Below, one piece after another: positions 12,928 to 26,106 of a stretch of DNA of 39,453 nucleotides (its first letter is position 1; each line of letters opens with the position of its first letter). Where the stretch lies: the NCBI GenBank assembly GCA_028701335.1, contig JAQVQY010000009.1, positions 1 through 39,453 on the forward strand, read 5' to 3'. The position numbers and the translations under genes were made by a program. The notes beneath the pieces are model-generated. The model worked only from the letters and a program-made list of their open reading frames with translations, searched no databases and was not told the DNA's origin. The stretch comes from Eubacteriales bacterium (GTDB lineage Bacteria; Bacillota; Clostridia; Christensenellales; Aristaeellaceae).

Positions 12928-13062
12928 ACCCACCTCTTGTGCCGCGTTGGCACACAACTTGTCGTTTGCGCGACATTCCGGTGGGCTTAAACCCTAACCG
13001 AAGGCCGCGTCCATAGGTGAAAGATAGATTAGGCGCCTACTGCGCACTGGTTCATAATACCA

Positions 13063-13091
13063 ATGTTAGACAATATGACAGAGGCTGTCAA
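13063..13091 (-). promoter_or_regulatory. putative sigma-A promoter for the LuxR regulator
   Basis: Minus strand TTGACA (13091-13086), 17-bp spacer, TAACAT (13068-13063). Confidence 0.55.
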
Positions 13092-13106
13092 CCTGGAAGG
13101 CAGCCG

Positions 13107-13136
13107 AAGAAAAAGGCCACCGGACTGGCCGGTGGC
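13107..13136 (-). terminator. intrinsic terminator of SH3-like protein gene
   Basis: GCCACCGG (13116-13123) / CCGGTGGC (13129-13136); on the minus strand the hairpin is followed by CTTTTTCTTC. Confidence 0.8.
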
Positions 13137-13157
13137 TGAATAGGGTAATCCCCGATA

Positions 13158-14288
13158 TCAGTTCATCGTGAAGGAGACCATGCCGGCCGCGATAAACACC
13201 GTGGTGCCGTTTGGCAGCATGATCTGGTACCAGCCATTGGTTGGGATGCCAACCACCTCATAGACATTGCCCGGATCGGCTTTGCCCACAATGGTTGCTT
13301 TCATGGAAGGTTCCGCCCGCAGGTTTGCCTGGCGGGTGTGGGTCACCAGGACGGTGCCAATGCCGGTGTGGAAGGAACGGTGCAGGCGATATACGCCCAG
13401 GATGGCGTCCGTGCGGGTGAGGGGATGGGTGGGGAAGAAGAGGTGCTCCGCATCGATGCTCATCACAGGATTCCCTGAAGTGGTGTCTGCATGGTCAAGC
13501 ACGGTGATCACCATGTCCAGCATGGGAAGCTGGCGCCAGTCTGAACTGTCATCGGTGGTTACCACCCCCGCGTAGCCCTGAGCCAAACCAATGTCATCTG
13601 CGTCGGCGATATAGGGGTCATGGAAATGGTCCTGCCTGGGGTTCTCATCGCCCATATCGATCAGGGCGCCATACATCTCAGCCGCCGCAACGCCGCGCAG
13701 CACAATGTTGAACTGGGCGCCGGCGCTGGCCGCCTGGTATTCCTCCAGGGTCAGGTAAACATGGCTTCTGATGGCGGCGGGATTTTTGGACTTCAGGCGA
13801 ACGGCGTTGGTGAGCAGGCCGTCCAATTCCTGCCAGGTGACATTGCCCTCAGACAGCATCCCCTGGGGCACAAGGCCCAGGCTGCGGGCTGCCTGGATCT
13901 CCCGGGCAATCAGCTCCGCCGGTGAGGGTGTGGCGGTGGGGGTGGGCTTGGGCGTGGGCTTGGCAGTGGGCTTTGGCGTGGGAGTGATGAAGGGCTTGGG
14001 CTGGCGGTCGGTAAGAAACTCGGTTTTCACATAGCCGTTGTACATCCCATACTGCACATGGTTCCAGACCATGCCCAGGATATCCGGATACACCGTGACC
14101 TCGGCGCCATAAGGGATTTTGGTGAGCACCCGGGCGTTCGGGTCAGGTTCCTCACGCATATTCAGCTGTTTACCGTCAGGGGTTTTCACATACATGGGGT
14201 AGGCGTCCGGGTCATAAATGGACGCGGCGGCGGGCAGCATGGCTGCCAGCAGAAAGAGGGCGGTCAGGAGGCTGAAAATTCTTTTCAT
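13158..14288 (-). CDS. secreted SH3-like-domain protein, paralog of 5677..6789
   Basis: Signal peptide; 'MYVKTPDGKQLNMREEPDPNARVLTKIPYGAEVTVYPDILGMVWNHVQYGMYNGYVKTEFL', linker 'TPTPKPTAKPTPKPTPTATPSP', C-terminal 'RQANLRAEPSMKATIVGKADPGNVYEVVGIPTNGWYQI'. Confidence 0.86.
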   Translation of the reverse strand: MKRIFSLLTALFLLAAMLPAAASIYDPDAYPMYVKTPDGKQLNMREEPDPNARVLTKIPYGAEVTVYPDILGMVWNHVQYGMYNGYVKTEFLTDRQPKPFITPTPKPTAKPTPKPTPTATPSPAELIAREIQAARSLGLVPQGMLSEGNVTWQELDGLLTNAVRLKSKNPAAIRSHVYLTLEEYQAASAGAQFNIVLRGVAAAEMYGALIDMGDENPRQDHFHDPYIADADDIGLAQGYAGVVTTDDSSDWRQLPMLDMVITVLDHADTTSGNPVMSIDAEHLFFPTHPLTRTDAILGVYRLHRSFHTGIGTVLVTHTRQANLRAEPSMKATIVGKADPGNVYEVVGIPTNGWYQIMLPNGTTVFIAAGMVSFTMN

Positions 14289-17029: not shown

Positions 17030-17077
17030 CGAACGAAAAACAAGAGAGGGTCCGCGCGGCGGACGGCCGGCGGACCC
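17030..17077 (-). terminator. intrinsic terminator ending the NHLM/LysM locus
   Basis: Minus strand GGGTCCGC-N14-GCGGACCC followed by TCTCTTGTTTTT (stem arms 17070-17077 and 17048-17055). Confidence 0.8.
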
Positions 17078-17100
17078 AAAATGGAAACGATTTTGCTTCA

Positions 17101-17328
17101 TTACAGATAAATGCGAAGCCTCCAGCCCGTCTCGATCAAATCGGGGTTGCTGATGATATCGCGGTTCCAGTCGTAAATCCTTTCCCAGGTTACGCCGGAG
17201 TGGCCATGCTTCTGGTAATGCTTTGCGATGCTATGCAGGTTGTCTCCCTTGACCACAGTATAATAGACCATGCTGTTGGTGCCCGCGCCTCCCGATACAT
17301 TGTTCAGATCGTCATCCCTGAGTGTCAT
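17101..17328 (-). CDS. double-glycine leader peptide fused to a LysM domain (predicted C39-processed exported mini-protein)
   Basis: 75 aa: MTLRDDDLNNVSGG|AGTNSMVYYTVVKGDNLHSIAKHYQKHGHSGVTWERIYDWNRDIISNPDLIETGWRLRIYL. Leader matches L(-12), D(-8), L(-7), V(-4), G(-2), G(-1); remainder is a full LysM; RBS AAAGGAGG. Confidence 0.88.
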   Translation of the reverse strand: MTLRDDDLNNVSGGAGTNSMVYYTVVKGDNLHSIAKHYQKHGHSGVTWERIYDWNRDIISNPDLIETGWRLRIYL

Positions 17329-17353
17329 GATGGTATCCTCCTTTATTTTTTCC

Positions 17354-17368
17354 GGCCGCGCCGCGGCC
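17354..17368. repeat. 15-nt perfect GC palindrome in the leader of the GG-LysM gene
   Basis: GGCCGCG-C-CGCGGCC between the secreted protein stop and the LysM ORF RBS. Confidence 0.6.
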
Positions 17369-17394: not shown

Positions 17395-17889
17395 TTACTC
17401 CTCGCCCAAGTCAGACAGAAGCAGATCAGACATCTCCAGCAGCGCTTCCTCCGTGGCAACATTGAACATGGCCAGGGCAAAATTATAGCCTTCCTTTTCG
17501 TAGCGCCACAGGGCGATGCCATCCCCGAATTCATGCAGGCAGACGGTACCGCTGAAGGGAGCCATTACAACATGCTTTACAGTATCCCAATCCTGGTACA
17601 TGCCGGATATATCATTGGGGTCATTGTCCAGTTGGGCCCGGAAGATGTACTCTACCTGCTGGAAGACAAAGCGCACCTGGCCCAGAGGTTCCTGATCCGG
17701 GATTTCAATGAGCGAATAATCGACCTCTGTGGCATCCTCAGGCACAAGCAGATTGGCCCCGGTGGCCTCCAGAACCTCTTCCCGGGTAACCTCACGGACC
17801 GGGTTTGGCAGCATCATCCCTTCGGCCAGCCCCAAAACGGGAAGCATCAAAGCCAGAACCAAAAGCAGTGACAGCAGTTTCTTGTTCAT
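17395..17889 (-). CDS. secreted single-domain 'DISGMY' protein of unknown function
   Basis: 164 aa, signal peptide; 'MLPNPVREVTREEVLEATGANLLVPEDATEVDYSLIEIPDQEPLGQVRFVFQQVEYIFRAQLDNDPNDISGMYQDW'; start overlaps sigma-factor stop (ATGA). Confidence 0.8.
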   Translation of the reverse strand: MNKKLLSLLLVLALMLPVLGLAEGMMLPNPVREVTREEVLEATGANLLVPEDATEVDYSLIEIPDQEPLGQVRFVFQQVEYIFRAQLDNDPNDISGMYQDWDTVKHVVMAPFSGTVCLHEFGDGIALWRYEKEGYNFALAMFNVATEEALLEMSDLLLSDLGEE

Positions 17890-18398
17890 ACCTGTTCCTC
17901 CATTTTATTGTCCAGTAGTTTGCGCAGTTTTTTGAGCGCCGTTGATTGGATGAAGCCCTCGTTGCTGTAGGAGATGTTCATTTTCTGCGCGATTACTCCG
18001 GGACTTAGGCCCTCATAAAAGCGCAGAATGAGGATGTCCCGTTCCCGTTGGCTAAGGCTATCAAGGGCCTGGGCCAACTCGGCCAGCTGCTCGCGCCCAA
18101 TCACCTTGTCATCCACCGCTTCGTCGCCATCCTGCAGGTTCTCCTGTTCTTCCAGGGGAATGACGGGTTTTGCCCTTCTGTAATAATCCCGCACAGCATT
18201 GCTTGTAATGGCGTATATCCAGGTGGACAGGCTGCCTTTGGCGCTGTTGTAACTGTCAAGGGCCGTTTCCACCTTGAGGAACACATCGCTGGCCAGATCC
18301 TCAGCGTCGTGGTGGTTATTGATTCTGGAGCGGATATAGCGGCTTACCTTGCTCTGATATTCCCCGAAGATGTGGTCCATGGTGACCGGTTCACACAT
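17886..18398 (-). CDS. RNA polymerase sigma-70 family factor, ECF-like
   Basis: 'FGEYQSKVSRYIRSRINNHHDAEDLASDVFLKVETALDSYNSAKGSLSTWIYAITSNAVRDYYRR' (sigma2) and 'LDSLSQRERDILILRFYEGLSPGVIAQKMNIS' (sigma4). Preferred start ATG 18398, overlapping the upstream stop. Confidence 0.92.
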   Translation of the reverse strand: MCEPVTMDHIFGEYQSKVSRYIRSRINNHHDAEDLASDVFLKVETALDSYNSAKGSLSTWIYAITSNAVRDYYRRAKPVIPLEEQENLQDGDEAVDDKVIGREQLAELAQALDSLSQRERDILILRFYEGLSPGVIAQKMNISYSNEGFIQSTALKKLRKLLDNKMEEQV

Positions 18399-18588
18399 GG
18401 GTGTCCCCCTCTTCTCTGAGGATATCAGGATCGCCCGCGGCATTGAGTTCCAGGTCTTCGTCCGAAAGGGGGATGCCCTTTTTGACCCACCGCGCCAACG
18501 CCCCGTCTATCAGTCTGCCCAGGCGTTCCTCGCCCTCAAAGCGCTGAAAGTCCAAAAGCTTGCGCAGTACCTTGTCACTCATTGTCAT
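18391..18588 (-). CDS. 65-aa protein translationally coupled to the ECF sigma factor; C-terminal GG-leader-like motif
   Basis: MTMSDKVLRKLLDFQRFEGEERLGRLIDGALARWVKKGIPLSDEDLELNAAGDPDILREEGDTHV; RBS AAGGAAGG; stop overlaps sigma start as ATGTGTGA. Confidence 0.75.
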   Translation of the reverse strand: MTMSDKVLRKLLDFQRFEGEERLGRLIDGALARWVKKGIPLSDEDLELNAAGDPDILREEGDTHV

Positions 18589-18615: not shown

Positions 18616-20817
18616 TTACGTGTTGGATTCCATTTTCTTAGAGTCCGGTTCCACCTGCTGCCGGCTTACCAGGTCTGTGAAGATGCCGCCCCGGGCCACC
18701 AGATCCTCATAGGTTCCATCTTCGGCGATCCTGCCCTCATCCAGCACCAGGATGCGGCCGCACTGCCGGATGGTGGACAGGCGATGGGCCACGACTATCC
18801 GGGTACACTTGAGTTTTTCCAGTGATTGGGAAACCTGCCGCTGGGTGATGTTGTCAAGAGCGCTGGTGGCTTCGTCCAGCAGCAGGATGCGCGGCTTTGA
18901 AGCGATGGCCCTTGCTATCATCAGCCGTTGGCGCTGCCCACCCGACACGCCTCCCTCTCCCTCAGACAGCAGGGTGTGCATGCCCATGGGCATTTCACGG
19001 ATATCCTGGGCGATGCCGGCTGTTTCCGCCGCCTCCCAGGCCTCCTGCAGGCTCAGCCCGGGAGCTGAGATGGCGATGTTGGAGAAGACATCCCCCTGAA
19101 ACAGCTTGCTGTCCTGGGTCACCACGCCCAGGTGGCGCCGCAGGCTGCGCAGGTCAAGCGTTGCCATGTCCTGCCCATCATAGTAGACGGCGCCGCGCTG
19201 TGGCTGCTCAAAGCCCAGCAGCAGGCGGAAGATGGTGGACTTTCCGCTGCCCGTACGCCCCACGATGGCCACGTACTCTCCCGGGCGGATTTTCAGGCTC
19301 AAGTCATGAAGCACCGGGGGCATCCGCTCATGGTAGCGGAAGGAGATGTGGTTGAATTCTACCCCGCCCGAGAGGTGCCGGACGCTTTTTTTGTGCCGCG
19401 CTGTTTCAGGCGTGGCCTTCAGCAGCGGGCCAATCATCTGAAGCATCGGGCGAATCTCCGCCGCCTGGAACACCATCCCCGCCAGGGAAGCGAAGGCGCC
19501 GCTGACCATCCCAAAGGAAAGGCTGAAGGCCATGTAGCCCGCCGTGTCCACTCCGTTTCTCACCGCGGCAAAGTAGATGAGCACCGTGCCAAGCAGGGCG
19601 ATGGCCTGGGGAATGACCTGGCCAAAACGGACCAGGAAGGGCGGTTCATACTGAAGCCTGGCGCCTTTTACATAACAGTCGGCCCATTTGGCGAAGGCGC
19701 GCTTCTCAGCCCCAGCCAGCTTGATCTTTTGCACACTGCTGATCAGGGAAAACACCATGCCGCTCTCCTTGGCGCTGATTTCCATGCGCTCCTGTGTATA
19801 GCGTACCTGGGCTAAGGTGGACAGCACGGAAACGGCCAGGGTGGACAAAACGATGGCAAGCGCCGGGACCGCGAGCGACGGCGCGAAGCGCGTTACCTGT
19901 CCCAGGTAGGCAAACGACATCAGGCTTGACAGCCCGCCGGTGAGGGCGATGTTTATTATCAGGCTGCTAAGGCTTCCCACAGATCTTACCCTGCTGGTCA
20001 GCTCACCAGCGTTATAGCCCCTAAAAAAACTGGCCGGAAGCGAGAGCACCCGCATCATGGCGGCGGACTGCACCATCAGGTCAAGCCGCGTCTGTATCTG
20101 GGAGAGCAGTAGCATCCGCGCTGTGGTGATCAGCGCCATGGACACAATCACCCCCACCATGGCGCTTGCCACAGGCGCCAGCAGACTGTACGCGCCGCCA
20201 CTGAGAACGGGCCCAAACAGCAGGAGGTTCATCCGCGGCAGCAGGAGGCCCAATCCCGTTACCAGAAAGGCCACCAGGAAGACCAACGCCAGGTCCGACC
20301 AGGAGAGGGCCCTGGCAATATAGAACAGCAAATCCCGCGCGCCAAGCTTTCTCAAGGGGAAGGGGCGGTAGAAACAGAGCGCGTCCTCAGATACAGTTCC
20401 CGCTGTGCGGGCGTTCAGCTTGACCCGCTTCCCGGTATCCGGGTCCAGATAGGTGTAGCTGCCAAATGCGCCCGGCAAAAGGGCGATAGCCTTTTCTTCC
20501 CTGGTAGTGCCCAGCATAGGTCCAATAGCTTCTTTATACCAGTTACCTGACAGCCGCACCCGGCGGTGCATCAGGCCCAGGGGGGCGGTCAGCCGCGCCA
20601 GTTGCTCCGGAATTTCCTCAGCCGTCTGCGTGTCCTCAGGCGGGGGCAGCCGGTAATAGGAGATAATGTGCATAATAGCGCCCTGGGCTTGCCGGCTGTC
20701 AGCCTGGGGAAAAGGTGGATGCCCAAGCACAGCCCCAGCCATATCGGCAAAAGCCTGGGCAAAGCGCTCGTCATCCTGCTGCGTGCGCTTGCGTATCTGC
20801 TCGTCAAACCAACCCAT
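18616..20817 (-). CDS. ABC transporter (permease-ATPase), NHLM bacteriocin-system type without C39 peptidase
   Basis: 733 aa; TM region then 'VAIVGRTGSGKSTIFRLLLGFEQPQRGAVYYDGQDM', 'VSGGQRQRLMIARAIASKPRILLLDEATSALD'. Confidence 0.92.
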   Translation of the reverse strand: MGWFDEQIRKRTQQDDERFAQAFADMAGAVLGHPPFPQADSRQAQGAIMHIISYYRLPPPEDTQTAEEIPEQLARLTAPLGLMHRRVRLSGNWYKEAIGPMLGTTREEKAIALLPGAFGSYTYLDPDTGKRVKLNARTAGTVSEDALCFYRPFPLRKLGARDLLFYIARALSWSDLALVFLVAFLVTGLGLLLPRMNLLLFGPVLSGGAYSLLAPVASAMVGVIVSMALITTARMLLLSQIQTRLDLMVQSAAMMRVLSLPASFFRGYNAGELTSRVRSVGSLSSLIINIALTGGLSSLMSFAYLGQVTRFAPSLAVPALAIVLSTLAVSVLSTLAQVRYTQERMEISAKESGMVFSLISSVQKIKLAGAEKRAFAKWADCYVKGARLQYEPPFLVRFGQVIPQAIALLGTVLIYFAAVRNGVDTAGYMAFSLSFGMVSGAFASLAGMVFQAAEIRPMLQMIGPLLKATPETARHKKSVRHLSGGVEFNHISFRYHERMPPVLHDLSLKIRPGEYVAIVGRTGSGKSTIFRLLLGFEQPQRGAVYYDGQDMATLDLRSLRRHLGVVTQDSKLFQGDVFSNIAISAPGLSLQEAWEAAETAGIAQDIREMPMGMHTLLSEGEGGVSGGQRQRLMIARAIASKPRILLLDEATSALDNITQRQVSQSLEKLKCTRIVVAHRLSTIRQCGRILVLDEGRIAEDGTYEDLVARGGIFTDLVSRQQVEPDSKKMESNT

Positions 20818-20828
20818 TGCGCTTCCCC

Positions 20829-23009
20829 TTACTCATTGGACACCAGCCGGCGGTAGAGCCCGTCCCGGGCATAAAGTGTGTCGTGGGTGCCCCGCTCAAC
20901 GACTTTGCCGTGGTCCAGCACTACGATCTCATCACAGTCCCGGATGGTGGACAGGCGATGTGCCACCACCACCGAGGTGACGCCCCGCTGCCTGATGCCA
21001 CGCATCACCTCATACTCCGTGCGGGCGTCAAGGGCGCTGGTCGCCTCGTCCAGGACGATAATGGATGGGTCCTGGGCCAGGACACGGGCAATTTCAAGCC
21101 GTTGGCGCTGCCCGCCGGAGAGGTCCCGGCCGCCTGAGAGGATTCGGCCCTGATAACCATCCTCCCGGCGCAGGATATCATCGTGAATCTGGGCGTCCCG
21201 GGCCGCCAGGATCACCTCAAAATCCTCAATGGAAGTGTCCCACATCCTGATGTTGTCAGCGATGCTGTCCTCGAATAAAATGATGTCCTGGTCCACCACC
21301 GCCAGGGAAGCGGTGAAAATCTCCCTCGTGATATCTTCCATCAGCCGGCCGTCAAATAAAATCTCGCCCCGCCAGGGTTTATAAAGGCCTGAGATCAGCT
21401 TGGCCAGCGTGGATTTGCCGCAGCCGGAAGGCCCCACCAGCGCCACACTGGCTCCCGGTTTGAGGCTTAGGTCAAAGCCCGCAATCAGCGGTTCTCCCAG
21501 GGGGGCATAGCCAAAGGTCACTCCCCGCATTTCCATTCCGCCATGCAGCTTATCACAGTCACCCTCGAGCAGGGGGGAAGTTCGCTCAGGCACATCCGGG
21601 GGATAAGACAGCACATCCTCAATGCGCTCCATATCCCCGCGCATCTCCTGAACACCCTGTCCGGCTGAGATCAGATTGCCGGCAGGCGTGGCGAAAGCGC
21701 CCATGAAACCCTGGAAGGCCAGGATCATCCCGGCGGTAAACTGGCCCTGCAGCGCCAGCCAAACACCCAAAACCAACACTGCCGCGTCCGCCAGGGAGGA
21801 AATCAGCCCCGGAATGCTGCCCAGGCAGTGGTTCAGCCGGGTAAAGCGCACCACCTGGGTGTTGACTGACGCCTGGTAACCCGCCCACTTCTCAAAGTAC
21901 CCGTCCTCAGCACCGCAGGCCTTGATGGTTTCAATCAACTGGATGCCTGTCACCGTGGCCCCGGCCAGCCTGCCGGCGTCCCGCATCTGCACCCGGGTGA
22001 TGTTGACCCGTTTTTTTGATATAATCCTTGCCAGAATCATCTTGAGCGCCATAGCCCCGATGCCAACGGCAGTAAGCAGGACGCTGTAGCGCAGCATCAC
22101 CACCAGATAGAACACCAGCATGGCAAAATCCAGGAACAACGGGGCCAATTGCCGGACCAAGGCGTTGGCAACCCCGGCGTTGGCGCTCTGGCGGGAGGCG
22201 ATATCTCCCACCATGCGCTGGGAGAAAAAGGCGAGGGGCAGGCGCAGCACATGCCACATGAACTCCGCGTTGGCTACCACCGCGAACTTGCCCTCAATGC
22301 GCAGCGAATGGACTTCCTGAAGGAAACCTATAAGGATTTGCGCCAGGGCCAGAACAGCAAGCGCCAGGGTGAAAGGCCCGAGCCACTCCGGGTTTCGCCC
22401 CGTCAAAAGCCGGTCCATAAAAACGCGGGAGAAGGCCGGGTTGATGATGCCAATCATGGCGGTAGCCAGGCTGGTCAGGACCACAAACGCCACGGCTGCC
22501 TGGGCGCCGCGTAGGCGCGAGCGGACAAAGGCCAGCATGCTCTTTGGCTTTCCGCCTGGCTCAAAGGCATCGGTTGGAGCAAACATCAGACATACACCAG
22601 TAAAACCCCGGTCAAACTCTTCTTTGGAGAGAATAACAGTGCCCCGGGCCGGGTCGTTGATAACGGCGCGCTCCCCCTTAAAGCCGCACAGCACCACAAA
22701 GTGGTTAAAATTCCAGTGAATGATACAGGGGAAACTCCCCTCCCGTTTCAGCTGCTCCGGCTCATAGCGAAAACCCTGGGCCATTAGCCCGTAGCTGCGG
22801 GCGGCAATGAGCATATTACGGGCGTTGGAGCCGTCCCGGGACACGCCGCAATCAGCGCGCACCTTTTCAAGCGGCAGCCATTTGGCGTACCACGCCAGCA
22901 CCATCGCCAGGCATGCAGCGCCGCATTCCAGCGCTTCCAGCTGCATCACCATGGGTACTTTGGCCCATCCCGTCCTTAGGGGTTGCCTGGATGATTTATT
23001 GCGCACCAT
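20829..23009 (-). CDS. peptidase C39-containing ABC transporter (PCAT), NHLM bacteriocin-system type
   Basis: N-terminal C39 domain 'VMQLEALECGAACLAMVLAWY' (Cys), 'IIHWNFNHFVVLCGF' (His), 'INDPARG' (Asp); ABC 'ALVGPSGCGKSTLAKLISG', 'LSGGQRQRLEIARVLAQDPSIIVLDEATSALD'. ATG at 23009 has the better RBS. Confidence 0.94.
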   Translation of the reverse strand: MVRNKSSRQPLRTGWAKVPMVMQLEALECGAACLAMVLAWYAKWLPLEKVRADCGVSRDGSNARNMLIAARSYGLMAQGFRYEPEQLKREGSFPCIIHWNFNHFVVLCGFKGERAVINDPARGTVILSKEEFDRGFTGVCLMFAPTDAFEPGGKPKSMLAFVRSRLRGAQAAVAFVVLTSLATAMIGIINPAFSRVFMDRLLTGRNPEWLGPFTLALAVLALAQILIGFLQEVHSLRIEGKFAVVANAEFMWHVLRLPLAFFSQRMVGDIASRQSANAGVANALVRQLAPLFLDFAMLVFYLVVMLRYSVLLTAVGIGAMALKMILARIISKKRVNITRVQMRDAGRLAGATVTGIQLIETIKACGAEDGYFEKWAGYQASVNTQVVRFTRLNHCLGSIPGLISSLADAAVLVLGVWLALQGQFTAGMILAFQGFMGAFATPAGNLISAGQGVQEMRGDMERIEDVLSYPPDVPERTSPLLEGDCDKLHGGMEMRGVTFGYAPLGEPLIAGFDLSLKPGASVALVGPSGCGKSTLAKLISGLYKPWRGEILFDGRLMEDITREIFTASLAVVDQDIILFEDSIADNIRMWDTSIEDFEVILAARDAQIHDDILRREDGYQGRILSGGRDLSGGQRQRLEIARVLAQDPSIIVLDEATSALDARTEYEVMRGIRQRGVTSVVVAHRLSTIRDCDEIVVLDHGKVVERGTHDTLYARDGLYRRLVSNE

Positions 23010-23493
23010 GCCCGCTCCCTTCCAGCAGGAATTCAATGGGGCGGATGGTTTCCGTGGTTATAATCACATCCCAGACTCCGTCAGGCAGCCCTGGAGCGCT
23101 TACATGCACCGGGTAATTCCAGGTCTGGGGGTTCAGCTGATATGCCAGGAAGTCCTCCGGGTGGATTTCGTTGAACTCCTCTTCAGACAGCGGCACGGGT
23201 GACACGGACACCACCGTGCCCTGGAGCTCACCGATGGCGGCGGGCATGCCGGGGGAAACGCGCTCGATTTGTGCCACATAGCATACGACCTCTCCGTTTT
23301 GGGCGATTCCCTTGGCGGAGACGGTGCTGGGAAGGGTTCCATAGAAGCCAAACCCCACAAAAGCCACGAGAAGGATGATGATGGCCGCCAGCGCCAGCCA
23401 TACACTGGGCCGCGCCACGCGCAGATAGTCGCTGAGCGCTTCGGGGGACGTGATCCTGTCCACTTGGCTTTGACGAAACAGCTTGTTATCCAT
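22996..23493 (-). CDS. short HlyD/NHLM secretion-protein-like membrane protein
   Basis: 165 aa; 'RITSPEALSDYLRVARPSVWLALAAIIILLVAFVGFGFYGTLPSTVSAKGI', one TM then a short beta-rich domain; position next to PCAT. Confidence 0.75.
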   Translation of the reverse strand: MDNKLFRQSQVDRITSPEALSDYLRVARPSVWLALAAIIILLVAFVGFGFYGTLPSTVSAKGIAQNGEVVCYVAQIERVSPGMPAAIGELQGTVVSVSPVPLSEEEFNEIHPEDFLAYQLNPQTWNYPVHVSAPGLPDGVWDVIITTETIRPIEFLLEGSGHGAQ

Positions 23494-25801
23494 GGCCGGG
23501 CTCCTTTGTGCCGCGGGATTTTGCCTTTTTTTCCGGCACGCGTGCCAGATTTATATGGATAAGCAGCCGATTTTCCCCGTCCTCGTAAGTGTAGGCAGCA
23601 TAATCGGCCAGTTTTCGGATCATCATAAGGCCCAGCCCCCCGGCTTCCCGCTGGTCGCTGGAGAGGCTGATGTCCGGCATCGGCTGGGAGAGGGGGTCAA
23701 ACGGCTCACCCCGGTCCCTGAAGCGCATTACGGCTTCCCGGCCCACCAGCTCACAACTGAATGTCACCTTGTCCCCAGGGGAGCTGGTATAGCGAACCAT
23801 GTTGGAGAAAATCTCGTCCACCACCACATAAAGCCGGTTGAGCGCGTGGGGGGACGGGTTAAGGGGCGCTGTTTCGGCTTCAGCCAACGACTGGATGGTT
23901 TTCAGCTGTTCCTCCTCAAGGGGGATGTCCACCCATGGGAGTGCCGCGGGGCTTTTCAGGATGTCCAGCGCCATCAGCGTAATGTCATCAGCCTGCTCCC
24001 GGCCGCCGGCAAACTGTCTTAGGGCCTGCATCACCTTTTCGGGTTGCTTATGCGCCGGCATGTCACGCAGGGGAGTGTGGTCAATCAAGGTTTTAAAGCC
24101 CCCGGAGGTAAGGAAAGCACCCTGGGCATTCTCCGCCTCAATAACCCCATCGGTGTAAAGCAGCAGTTTGTCACCCGCTACCAGGCGGACGCGGCACATG
24201 TGGTATTGGCTGTCTTCCATGGCCCCCAGCACCAGGCCGGCCGAGCAACGCAAAAAGGCGTACTCTTCGCCCGTCCTGGCCAGAAGGGGTGGGTTGTGCC
24301 CGGCGTTCACATAATCAAGCCAGCCATCCCCTTCAAAATCCCACAGCCCCACAAACGCGGTGACAAAGAGGCCGGCCTCATTCTCCTCACAGAGCTTCCG
24401 GTTGGCGTGGGCAACCGCTTTGGCCAGATCTCTTTCCGCCAGAATGTCGCTTTGTAGCTGCGTCTTGACGCGCATCATAAATAAAGCGCCCGGGATACCC
24501 TTGCCGGAGACATCAGCGATAACAAGCGCCAACTTTCTGCCGGAAGGCCCGGGGACGAAGAAGAAATCATAAAAATCCCCGCCCACTTCCCGCGCGGCCT
24601 CCAAAAGCGCTCCAAGGCGGAACTGGCCTTCCAGCCCCTTAAGCGCGGATGTCCGGGGGAGGTTTGCATGCTGCACCTCCCGGGCCAGTGCAAGTTCCGC
24701 ATCAACACGCGACCGGGCATCGGCAATGGCCTGTTTGAGCGCGTCAACCGTTGCGTTAATGCCGTCTGACAGGGCGCGAAACTCGGCGTTGCCGTGCTCT
24801 TGCACCCGGGTTTCCAGGTTCCCCTCTGTGATGAGGGCCAGGGAGGCGTTCACATTCCTGATACCCCGGATGACCTCCACGTCTACCATTCGGCTGACCA
24901 GGATGAACACGCCAAGGAAAAGAAGGAGGTAGGCCAGGCCCATGAACATCATGGTAATGTTTCGGCCCGCATGGATTTCGGAATAGGGGAGCATTCCGAT
25001 GATCAGGTAATCTCCCCACTCTTTTCCCAGGCCCAGCGCGCGGGAAGCTCCCAACCCGGTTGTGAAAGGCTCGCCCGAACGGGCTTCAGCCAACTCAAAA
25101 TCCAGGTCCTCCGCCCTCAGGTCCATCAGTTCACGCTTACCGGAGCTTACCACCAGCCCACGTTCAAAGACCACCACGGTGCCGTGGCTGCCAATGGCAA
25201 ATCCCGGCGCCAGGCTTTTGATATCAGCTACCTGGACGGCTTCTGCCAGGCGCTCCGGCACGTCCCCGATCTGCACCATGCCCGCCCGGCCGGGAATGCC
25301 GGCGGCTGAGAACTGCATCATCATACTCGCGTCATGCCCCGTGGGGGCCGCGGGTTGTATCAAAATAAGGTTCGGGTCTTTTAGGATGGGCAGGAAGAAG
25401 GAGGACTGCTCAGCGCTGGCAAGGTCATAGCCAAGGTAGGGCGCGTAGGTGGTGGCGGTGATGATGCCGCTGCTATCAATCACATGCAGTTGGTCTACGT
25501 CAAGCACAGGCAAAAGGGCAGCGAGCTCATCACCGCTCTGTGCCATCTCCGGGTGCCGGGACAGAATCCAGCGGAGGGTATGAAGTTTGGTTGTCAGGGA
25601 TTCGTCATTGCTCTGGCGAATTTTTTCCAGGTCTCTGTCGTGCCGGGTAATTTGTACCCGCGCGTCAGCAAGCCTTGATTTAATCAGCTCCAGCGCGTCC
25701 TCCCGGGCATGGCGGGTCTGTACCAGCCAGGTGATAAGCAGGGTAACCCCGAAGGCCGCAACCATGAGGATCAAAAGGCGCCGCTGAAAGGTTCGCCTCA
25801 T
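23486..25801 (-). CDS. sensor + HAMP + SpoIIE-type PP2C phosphatase + HATPase_c (RsbU/RsbW-like fusion)
   Basis: 771 aa; N-terminal TM and extracytoplasmic sensor, HAMP-like 'NLETRVQEHGNAEFRALSDGINA', 'LAREVQHANLPR', 'VGGDFYDFFFVPGPSGRKLALVIADVSGKGIPGALFM', C-terminal 'VVDEIFSNMVRYTS...FRDRGEPFDP...GGLGLMMIRKLAD'. Confidence 0.92.
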   Translation of the reverse strand: MRRTFQRRLLILMVAAFGVTLLITWLVQTRHAREDALELIKSRLADARVQITRHDRDLEKIRQSNDESLTTKLHTLRWILSRHPEMAQSGDELAALLPVLDVDQLHVIDSSGIITATTYAPYLGYDLASAEQSSFFLPILKDPNLILIQPAAPTGHDASMMMQFSAAGIPGRAGMVQIGDVPERLAEAVQVADIKSLAPGFAIGSHGTVVVFERGLVVSSGKRELMDLRAEDLDFELAEARSGEPFTTGLGASRALGLGKEWGDYLIIGMLPYSEIHAGRNITMMFMGLAYLLLFLGVFILVSRMVDVEVIRGIRNVNASLALITEGNLETRVQEHGNAEFRALSDGINATVDALKQAIADARSRVDAELALAREVQHANLPRTSALKGLEGQFRLGALLEAAREVGGDFYDFFFVPGPSGRKLALVIADVSGKGIPGALFMMRVKTQLQSDILAERDLAKAVAHANRKLCEENEAGLFVTAFVGLWDFEGDGWLDYVNAGHNPPLLARTGEEYAFLRCSAGLVLGAMEDSQYHMCRVRLVAGDKLLLYTDGVIEAENAQGAFLTSGGFKTLIDHTPLRDMPAHKQPEKVMQALRQFAGGREQADDITLMALDILKSPAALPWVDIPLEEEQLKTIQSLAEAETAPLNPSPHALNRLYVVVDEIFSNMVRYTSSPGDKVTFSCELVGREAVMRFRDRGEPFDPLSQPMPDISLSSDQREAGGLGLMMIRKLADYAAYTYEDGENRLLIHINLARVPEKKAKSRGTKEPGHG

Positions 25802-26106
25802 GGGGTCTCGTCAAGAATGGTGAGGACATCCGTAAAGCCTGTGATCTCAAACACTTCCATGACGGCCGGGTTGGGATTTAAAATCGTGAGGCTCCCCTGC
25901 CGGTTCATCACCTTCTGCGCGGCCAGGATGACCCGAAGCCCGGCGCTGGATACATACTCCACACCCCGCATCTCAAACTCCAGTTGTGTGACGCCCTCAA
26001 CCCCCGCGCGGAGAGCCGCTTCAAGCTCCCGGGAAGTCATGCTGTCAAGCCGTCCTGTGAGCTTCAGGCGCAGGCGGCCGCCATCCCTGGTTTCTTCAAT
26101 GGTCAT
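25798..26106 (-). CDS. STAS-domain anti-sigma factor antagonist
   Basis: 102 aa; 'LKLTGRLDSMTSRELEAAL...LEFEMRGVEYVSSAGLRVILAAQKVMNRQG'; ATGA overlap with phosphatase start. Confidence 0.92.
   Translation of the reverse strand: MTIEETRDGGRLRLKLTGRLDSMTSRELEAALRAGVEGVTQLEFEMRGVEYVSSAGLRVILAAQKVMNRQGSLTILNPNPAVMEVFEITGFTDVLTILDETP

Follow-up and report, generated by a model that had tools for sequence, protein, structure and literature searches.

Organization of the locus

The window, by which we mean the whole stretch of 39,453 nucleotides analysed here, carries nine co-directional, tightly packed genes on the minus strand, running from position 26106 down to 17101, and their predicted products point to an NHLM-type export operon. 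The last of these genes encodes a small protein, here called GG-LysM, in which a LysM domain follows a double-glycine (GG) leader. Listed from 5' to 3', the features of this region are:

25798..26106, minus: STAS-like (anti-anti-sigma) protein, first of the conserved block; name read from sequence; adjoins the phosphatase in genomes G005, G320 and G001
23486..25801, minus: HAMP - SpoIIE-type phosphatase - HATPase regulator (Pfam)
22996..23493, minus: short HlyD-like adaptor, 165 aa; TIGR03794, 46 bits against a cut-off of 156, positions 1-58 of 421, the N-terminal part of NHLM HlyD only
20829..23036, minus: C39 peptidase/permease/ATPase (NHLM ABC1); TIGR03796, 914 bits, cut-off 853
18616..20817, minus: second ABC half-transporter, without C39 (NHLM ABC2); TIGR03797, 701 bits, just below the cut-off of 709
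18391..18588, minus: 65-aa conserved protein, kept in G005, G320, G001, G036 and G1006
17886..18443, minus: ECF-type sigma factor; TIGR02937, 105 bits
17395..17889, minus: 164-aa protein bearing a Sec-like signal; immediate 5' neighbour of GG-LysM; conserved in G005 and G320
17101..17328, minus: GG-LysM precursor, 75 aa; ORF, Pfam LysM, leader statistics, AlphaFold, Foldseek
17287..17328, minus: double-glycine leader MTLRDDDLNNVSGG; read from sequence, fits the LahT150 recognition residues -12/-7/-4
17035..17090, minus: terminator-like hairpin directly 3' of GG-LysM; core stem 17064..17050; fold -25.5 kcal/mol, z -3.6

NHLM/NHLP loci (TIGR03794, TIGR03796, TIGR03797) likewise combine ABC1, ABC2 and HlyD-like proteins, of which only ABC1 scores above its cut-off in the window. 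The window locus differs from these in its adaptor of only ~165 aa and in that no NHLP or Nif11 precursor was found. Since the NHLM type of exporter is named after RiPP precursors, the LysM-like region could in principle be the substrate of a modifying enzyme. We regard this as highly improbable: the leader is only 14 aa long and gave no NHLP or Nif11 match in NCBIfam, what follows it is an ordinary LysM domain in its entirety, and Pfam and NCBIfam searches with the operon genes revealed no modifying enzyme. The same databases, searched with the neighbouring proteins, led us to recognise no immunity gene beside GG-LysM.

Several further features of the operon were noted. Similarly short HlyD adaptors are present in the relatives inspected. 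A partner-switch-type phosphatase/HATPase with a STAS-like protein (23486..26106) is an unusual companion for an ECF-type sigma factor (17886..18443) within one operon, and by eye the start of the operon and the GG-LysM genes have no evident promoter motif in common. A GGCCGC-nnn-GCGGCC hairpin (~17349-17366, minus strand) lies just 5' of the GG-LysM ribosome site; its stem is kept, with differing loops, in G005 and in both copies of Clostridiales bacterium DTU024, and it possibly sets expression of the cargo apart from that of the operon. The 164-aa protein with the Sec-like signal returned no match in Pfam or NCBIfam, and in DTU024 a 29-residue C-terminal remnant of it has been duplicated along with GG-LysM. 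The 65-aa protein, for which no family match was obtained, has a conserved (F/D)YQ(R/K)F motif and a C-terminal AAGxP, and its neighbour is the sigma factor or the exporter; in G017 it stands beside a GG-LysM pair. Its AAG motif led us to consider it as a second C39 substrate, a weak candidate that was set aside because known sites have G at -2.

The GG-LysM precursor and its predicted fold

The GG-LysM open reading frame, for which the preliminary description of this DNA gave no strand, lies on the minus strand; it starts with an ATG at 17328, immediately preceded by AAAGGAGG, and its stop codon ends at 17101. The leader MTLRDDDLNNVSGG comprises residues 1-14 and places L at -12, D at -8, L at -7, V at -4 and G at -2 and -1, which confirms all six positions named in that description. 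Residues 15-75 form a mature part of 61 aa (7.2 kDa, pI 8.3), in line with the naked LysM cargo of about that length that had been predicted. The Pfam LysM profile (PF01476) matches residues 23-73 over positions 1-42 of 43, with an E-value of 1e-10 and 41.8 bits (cut-off 20.9). Neither the 75-aa ORF nor its in-frame extension upstream of the ATG contains a Sec-type hydrophobic N-terminus.

The AlphaFold2 prediction, made with four relatives, begins with a short leader helix followed by a region of low confidence around the cleavage site (residues 9-17). Residues 20-74 form a confident strand-helix-helix-strand unit (pLDDT ~90 per block) with elements E20-24, H31-40, H48-54 and E70-74. This beta-alpha-alpha-beta fold, together with the Pfam score, agrees with the earlier claim that a complete LysM domain stands behind the GG leader. 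A Foldseek search of the PDB returned LysM domains as nearly all top matches, with E-values that are weak (0.02) because the domain is small (~50 residues); the matches include Ecp6 and a Zymoseptoria LysM effector. By sequence, the closest solved protein is the fungal LysM effector Ecp6 (E = 6.7e-6), and Kbp, a distant relative, is also among the closest.

Fungal LysM effectors such as Ecp6 are small, secreted, LysM-only proteins, as GG-LysM is predicted to be, and both the best sequence match and the fold matches would suit a soluble LysM protein capturing muropeptides or oligomers of chitin in their manner. We consider such ligand capture unlikely, as the likeness lies at the general LysM level. 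Moreover, the fungal proteins depend on eukaryotic secretion, and several LysM domains are often present in them.

Comparison of the window gene with that of G005 yields a dN/dS of 0.115, and the two leaders differ by five synonymous and no non-synonymous changes, indicating at the sequence level that the gene is under purifying selection. To describe the family more broadly we used an alignment (A3) of 23 members from nine genomes that was built up stepwise; an earlier one, comprising the 13 members then available, proved too divergent to be scanned for a pattern. The GG and a Leu or Met at -7 are present in 23/23 members of A3. Position -12 is hydrophobic in all 23 (Ala in four), -8 is acidic in 21 and -4 is Val or Ile in 20. 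Every leader is acidic, the mature part is net positive in 22/23, and Pfam LysM was called in each of the 23 proteins. Purifying selection and the invariant GG indicate that GG-LysM is no chance ORF. That a GG merely happens to precede a LysM domain was ruled out by its conservation in 23/23 members and by the leader-position statistics. The reading frame is conserved, the opposite of which the preliminary description had named as a refuting outcome.

Predicted leader recognition and linkage to the C39 exporter

The products generally associated with C39 exporters are bacteriocins, lantibiotics and pheromones. The C39 domain of the window shares 72% identity over 145 residues with LahT150 (PDB code 6MPZ) and has equivalents of its residues Gln21, Cys27, His101 and Asp117. 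LahT150 has been reported to seat Val-4, Leu-7 and Leu-12 of the leader and to accept diverse cargos (PMC6363468), and all three residues are present in the window leader. For PCAT1, the leader is reported to confer specificity, with a cargo that is flexible inside the cavity (PMC6959990). GG-LysM has the leader of a C39 substrate, being acidic, hydrophobic at -12, -7 and -4 and ending in GG at -2/-1, where such substrates carry GG or else GA or GS, and a C39 exporter with its catalytic residues kept is encoded in the same operon.

LahT belongs to a lanthipeptide cluster (lah) in Lachnospiraceae C6A11, one of the closest known systems, with the same -12, -7, -4 and GG positions in its leaders. 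There, however, the LahA cargos are precursors of lanthipeptides and have leaders of the Nif11 type, whereas the cargo of GG-LysM is predicted to be a wall-binding domain. In Clostridium thermocellum, PCAT1 and CtA likewise pair a C39 ABC transporter with a GG-leader cargo of similar size; however, CtA is not described in the PCAT1 work as a LysM domain, and the PCAT1 C39 domain is more distant from that of the window than LahT150 is.

Operon order is conserved in G005 and in G320, the contig of which is that of DTU024, and linkage of GG-LysM to the operon was found in three genera. In genus g54, GG-LysM adjoins the exporter: in G859 it is the next gene after ABC2, and in G988 and G1016 both ABC2 and the sigma factor precede it. 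Across genomes, which are phylogenetically non-independent and in many cases incomplete, a C39 peptidase was detected in 33 of the 34 GG-LysM genomes tested, compared with 37/396 in an order-wide sample. This figure combines the first nine GG-LysM genomes (9/9) with a prediction test on 25 further ones (24/25); the sole exception, G834, is 87% complete. Clear GG-LysM genes occur in five genomes of the order-wide sample, all of them C39-positive (Fisher 5.5e-6, phylogeny ignored). Within genera, genomes without C39 also lack GG-LysM: genus g1 includes three genomes with both and eight with neither, and genus g52 one with both and three with neither.

GG leaders were inventoried with a leader-only profile. 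It returned exactly two matches in the genome of the window, both GG-LysM, and one or two matches each in G005, G320 and G036, again all GG-LysM. No GG leader was found with it in four congeners that lack C39. These results support, without proving it, that GG-LysM would be the main or only C39 substrate in these genomes.

Some LysM proteins, such as Kbp, are cytoplasmic. Given the distant relationship to Kbp and the missing Sec signal, GG-LysM might be imagined as a cytoplasmic protein with a coincidentally leader-like N-terminus. This is very unlikely in view of a GG and leader positions kept in 23/23 members, of the co-occurrence with C39 and the operon linkage, and of the lack of leaders in congeners without C39.

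The leader positions, the intact C39 domain, operon conservation in several genera, co-occurrence and the lack of any other detectable GG leader in the genome all agree with the proposal, made in the preliminary description, that GG-LysM is cargo of the C39 transporter of its own locus, and they strongly imply export from the sequence side. We think it likely that the NHLM-type C39 exporter encoded in its operon has GG-LysM as a dedicated substrate, which it would cleave and release as a naked, putatively wall-binding LysM domain. The acidic 14-residue leader would dock on the C39 domain via L-12, L-7 and V-4, as the LahT150 structure suggests, and the C39 domain would cut the precursor after Gly-Gly. 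The ABC pair would then release a 61-residue, slightly cationic, naked LysM outside the membrane, where the mature domain would most likely bind an N-acetylglucosamine-containing polymer, the peptidoglycan of the producer or of a neighbour. The sigma factor and phosphatase switch of the operon might control GG-LysM. As the C39 domain is very close to LahT150, the cleavage step is directly testable.

Distribution and multiplication of the family

GG-LysM genes are present in ~41 of the 301 genomes of the window's taxonomic family, spread over 12 genera; this count rests on E <= 1e-13, a near full-length match and a short open frame, with the match table read by eye. One genome of another family in the same order also has the gene. 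Outside the order, none was found among the matches listed for a class-wide sample of 388 genomes and a phylum-wide sample of 299, in which very divergent members could escape detection. The genome of the window encodes a second copy, 71% identical, on another contig, where an IS30-like transposase fragment (named by sequence; L019 951..1295, G000:C109) was also observed. GG-LysM of DTU024 is 84% identical and occurs as a tandem pair, and Christensenella sp. UBA4379 (its contig is that of G017) carries GG-LysM as well. These two were the only carriers in a LysM-motif scan of genome contigs, the 80 matches of which were mostly ordinary LysM proteins.

Copy numbers reach about 10 (9-10) per genome. 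Diverged paralogues and tandem arrays are present, and most paralogues lie away from regulator genes. The family is one that multiplies repeatedly within genomes, judging by these gene copies.

Homologues that conserve LysM and lack the GG leader were another refuting outcome named in the preliminary description. A leader-free model applied to the extracted loci found 80 LysM segments. A pattern identified the GG leader in 72 of them; of the other eight, five show a GG on inspection by eye and three are partial or masked fragments. Apart from these three, no stand-alone small LysM homologue without GG was found in the extracted loci, a figure that is no independent test because the loci had been selected with a leader-containing profile. 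A phage origin was considered and rejected: a scan of viral contigs found the GG-LysM pattern in 0/80 loci, and in ten cases inspected the viral LysM domains lie inside longer proteins.

Possible roles and relation to known systems

Wall binding by GG-LysM may be inferred from its membership of the LysM family; the roles of effector, coat, adhesin or competition factor proposed earlier are guesses. One reading that we find quite conceivable, while leaning against it, is a function on the producer's own wall, with GG-LysM secreted as a coat or plug when the HAMP-phosphatase/STAS/sigma module senses envelope stress. The partner-switch-type regulator and ECF-type sigma factor of the operon, conserved with the exporter, are consistent with this, as is SH3b, also a wall-binding domain, as an alternative cargo. 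However, no target promoter motif has been established, and most paralogues are distant from the regulators.

GG-LysM might instead serve antagonism, coating or disturbing the walls of neighbours in the manner of a bacteriocin, with paralogues of different wall specificities. Class II bacteriocins share its leader type, gene size and (predicted) export machinery; the mature proteins are cationic; diverged copies number up to ~10 in a genome, and tandem arrays occur; and G014 has, alongside GG-LysM, bacteriocin-like GG peptides that contain transmembrane segments. Unlike class II bacteriocins, GG-LysM has a complete LysM domain as cargo, with neither an immunity gene nor antimicrobial activity known. 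It has no separate toxic domain, and it is the sole detectable GG cargo in four genomes. We know of no case of killing by a lone LysM domain, and we hold this role to be somewhat doubtful.

The repeated multiplication and the presence of SH3b behind the same leader lead us to view the system as a route by which small modules that bind the wall are secreted, and not one bacteriocin. Tentatively, a bacteriocin-type exporter could have been repurposed throughout the family as a general route for naked LysM and SH3b modules that diversify by duplication and work between cells, either as effectors with wall specificity or as recognition proteins.

In Sec-exported bacterial LysM proteins the domain is usually accessory to a larger protein, and Kbp is cytoplasmic; in GG-LysM, by contrast, the LysM domain is the entire mature product behind a GG leader. 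No report of LysM or SH3 with a GG leader, C39 or NHLM was found in open-access full text, a body of literature that leaves most subscription papers outside. The GG leader, the exporter and the LysM domain are each known, while their combination and its family-wide expansion appear to be undescribed. A stand-alone, predicted wall-binding domain would be C39 cargo across a whole bacterial family, and it is the only detectable substrate type in the genome of the window. GG-LysM could serve as a clean model for the handling of small protein domains by C39 transporters. It also widens the range of GG-leader genes, so that products of this kind may be missed or wrongly labelled when GG-leader genes are mined on the assumption that they encode bacteriocins.

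Other cargos behind GG leaders

Richer genomes give 11-19 matches to the leader-only profile. Their cargos include members of Pfam SH3_3 in G045 and G382 and proteins that are SH3b-like by sequence in G282, G017 and G014; in G382, a GG-SH3b gene lies beside a C39 transporter. Zinc-ribbon-like cargos, cysteine-rich peptides and bacteriocin-like transmembrane peptides were also found. The GG-SH3 genes form a family that parallels GG-LysM; they are located at L024:12628-12891 and 12937-13200 (G045:C4) and in L260 near 10340 (G382:C29), and further GG-SH3 or SH3b-like loci are L334 (G282:C2), L347 (G017:C64), L340 (G014:C21) and L349 (G045:C13). Two cysteine- and glycine-rich GG-leader peptides adjoin an exporter in L169, near 1497 and 1979 (G001:C53), and similar peptides are encoded in L269 (G346). 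In L258 (2744-4200, G382:C27), five tandem GG-leader ORFs have near-identical leaders and related cargos without a known family.
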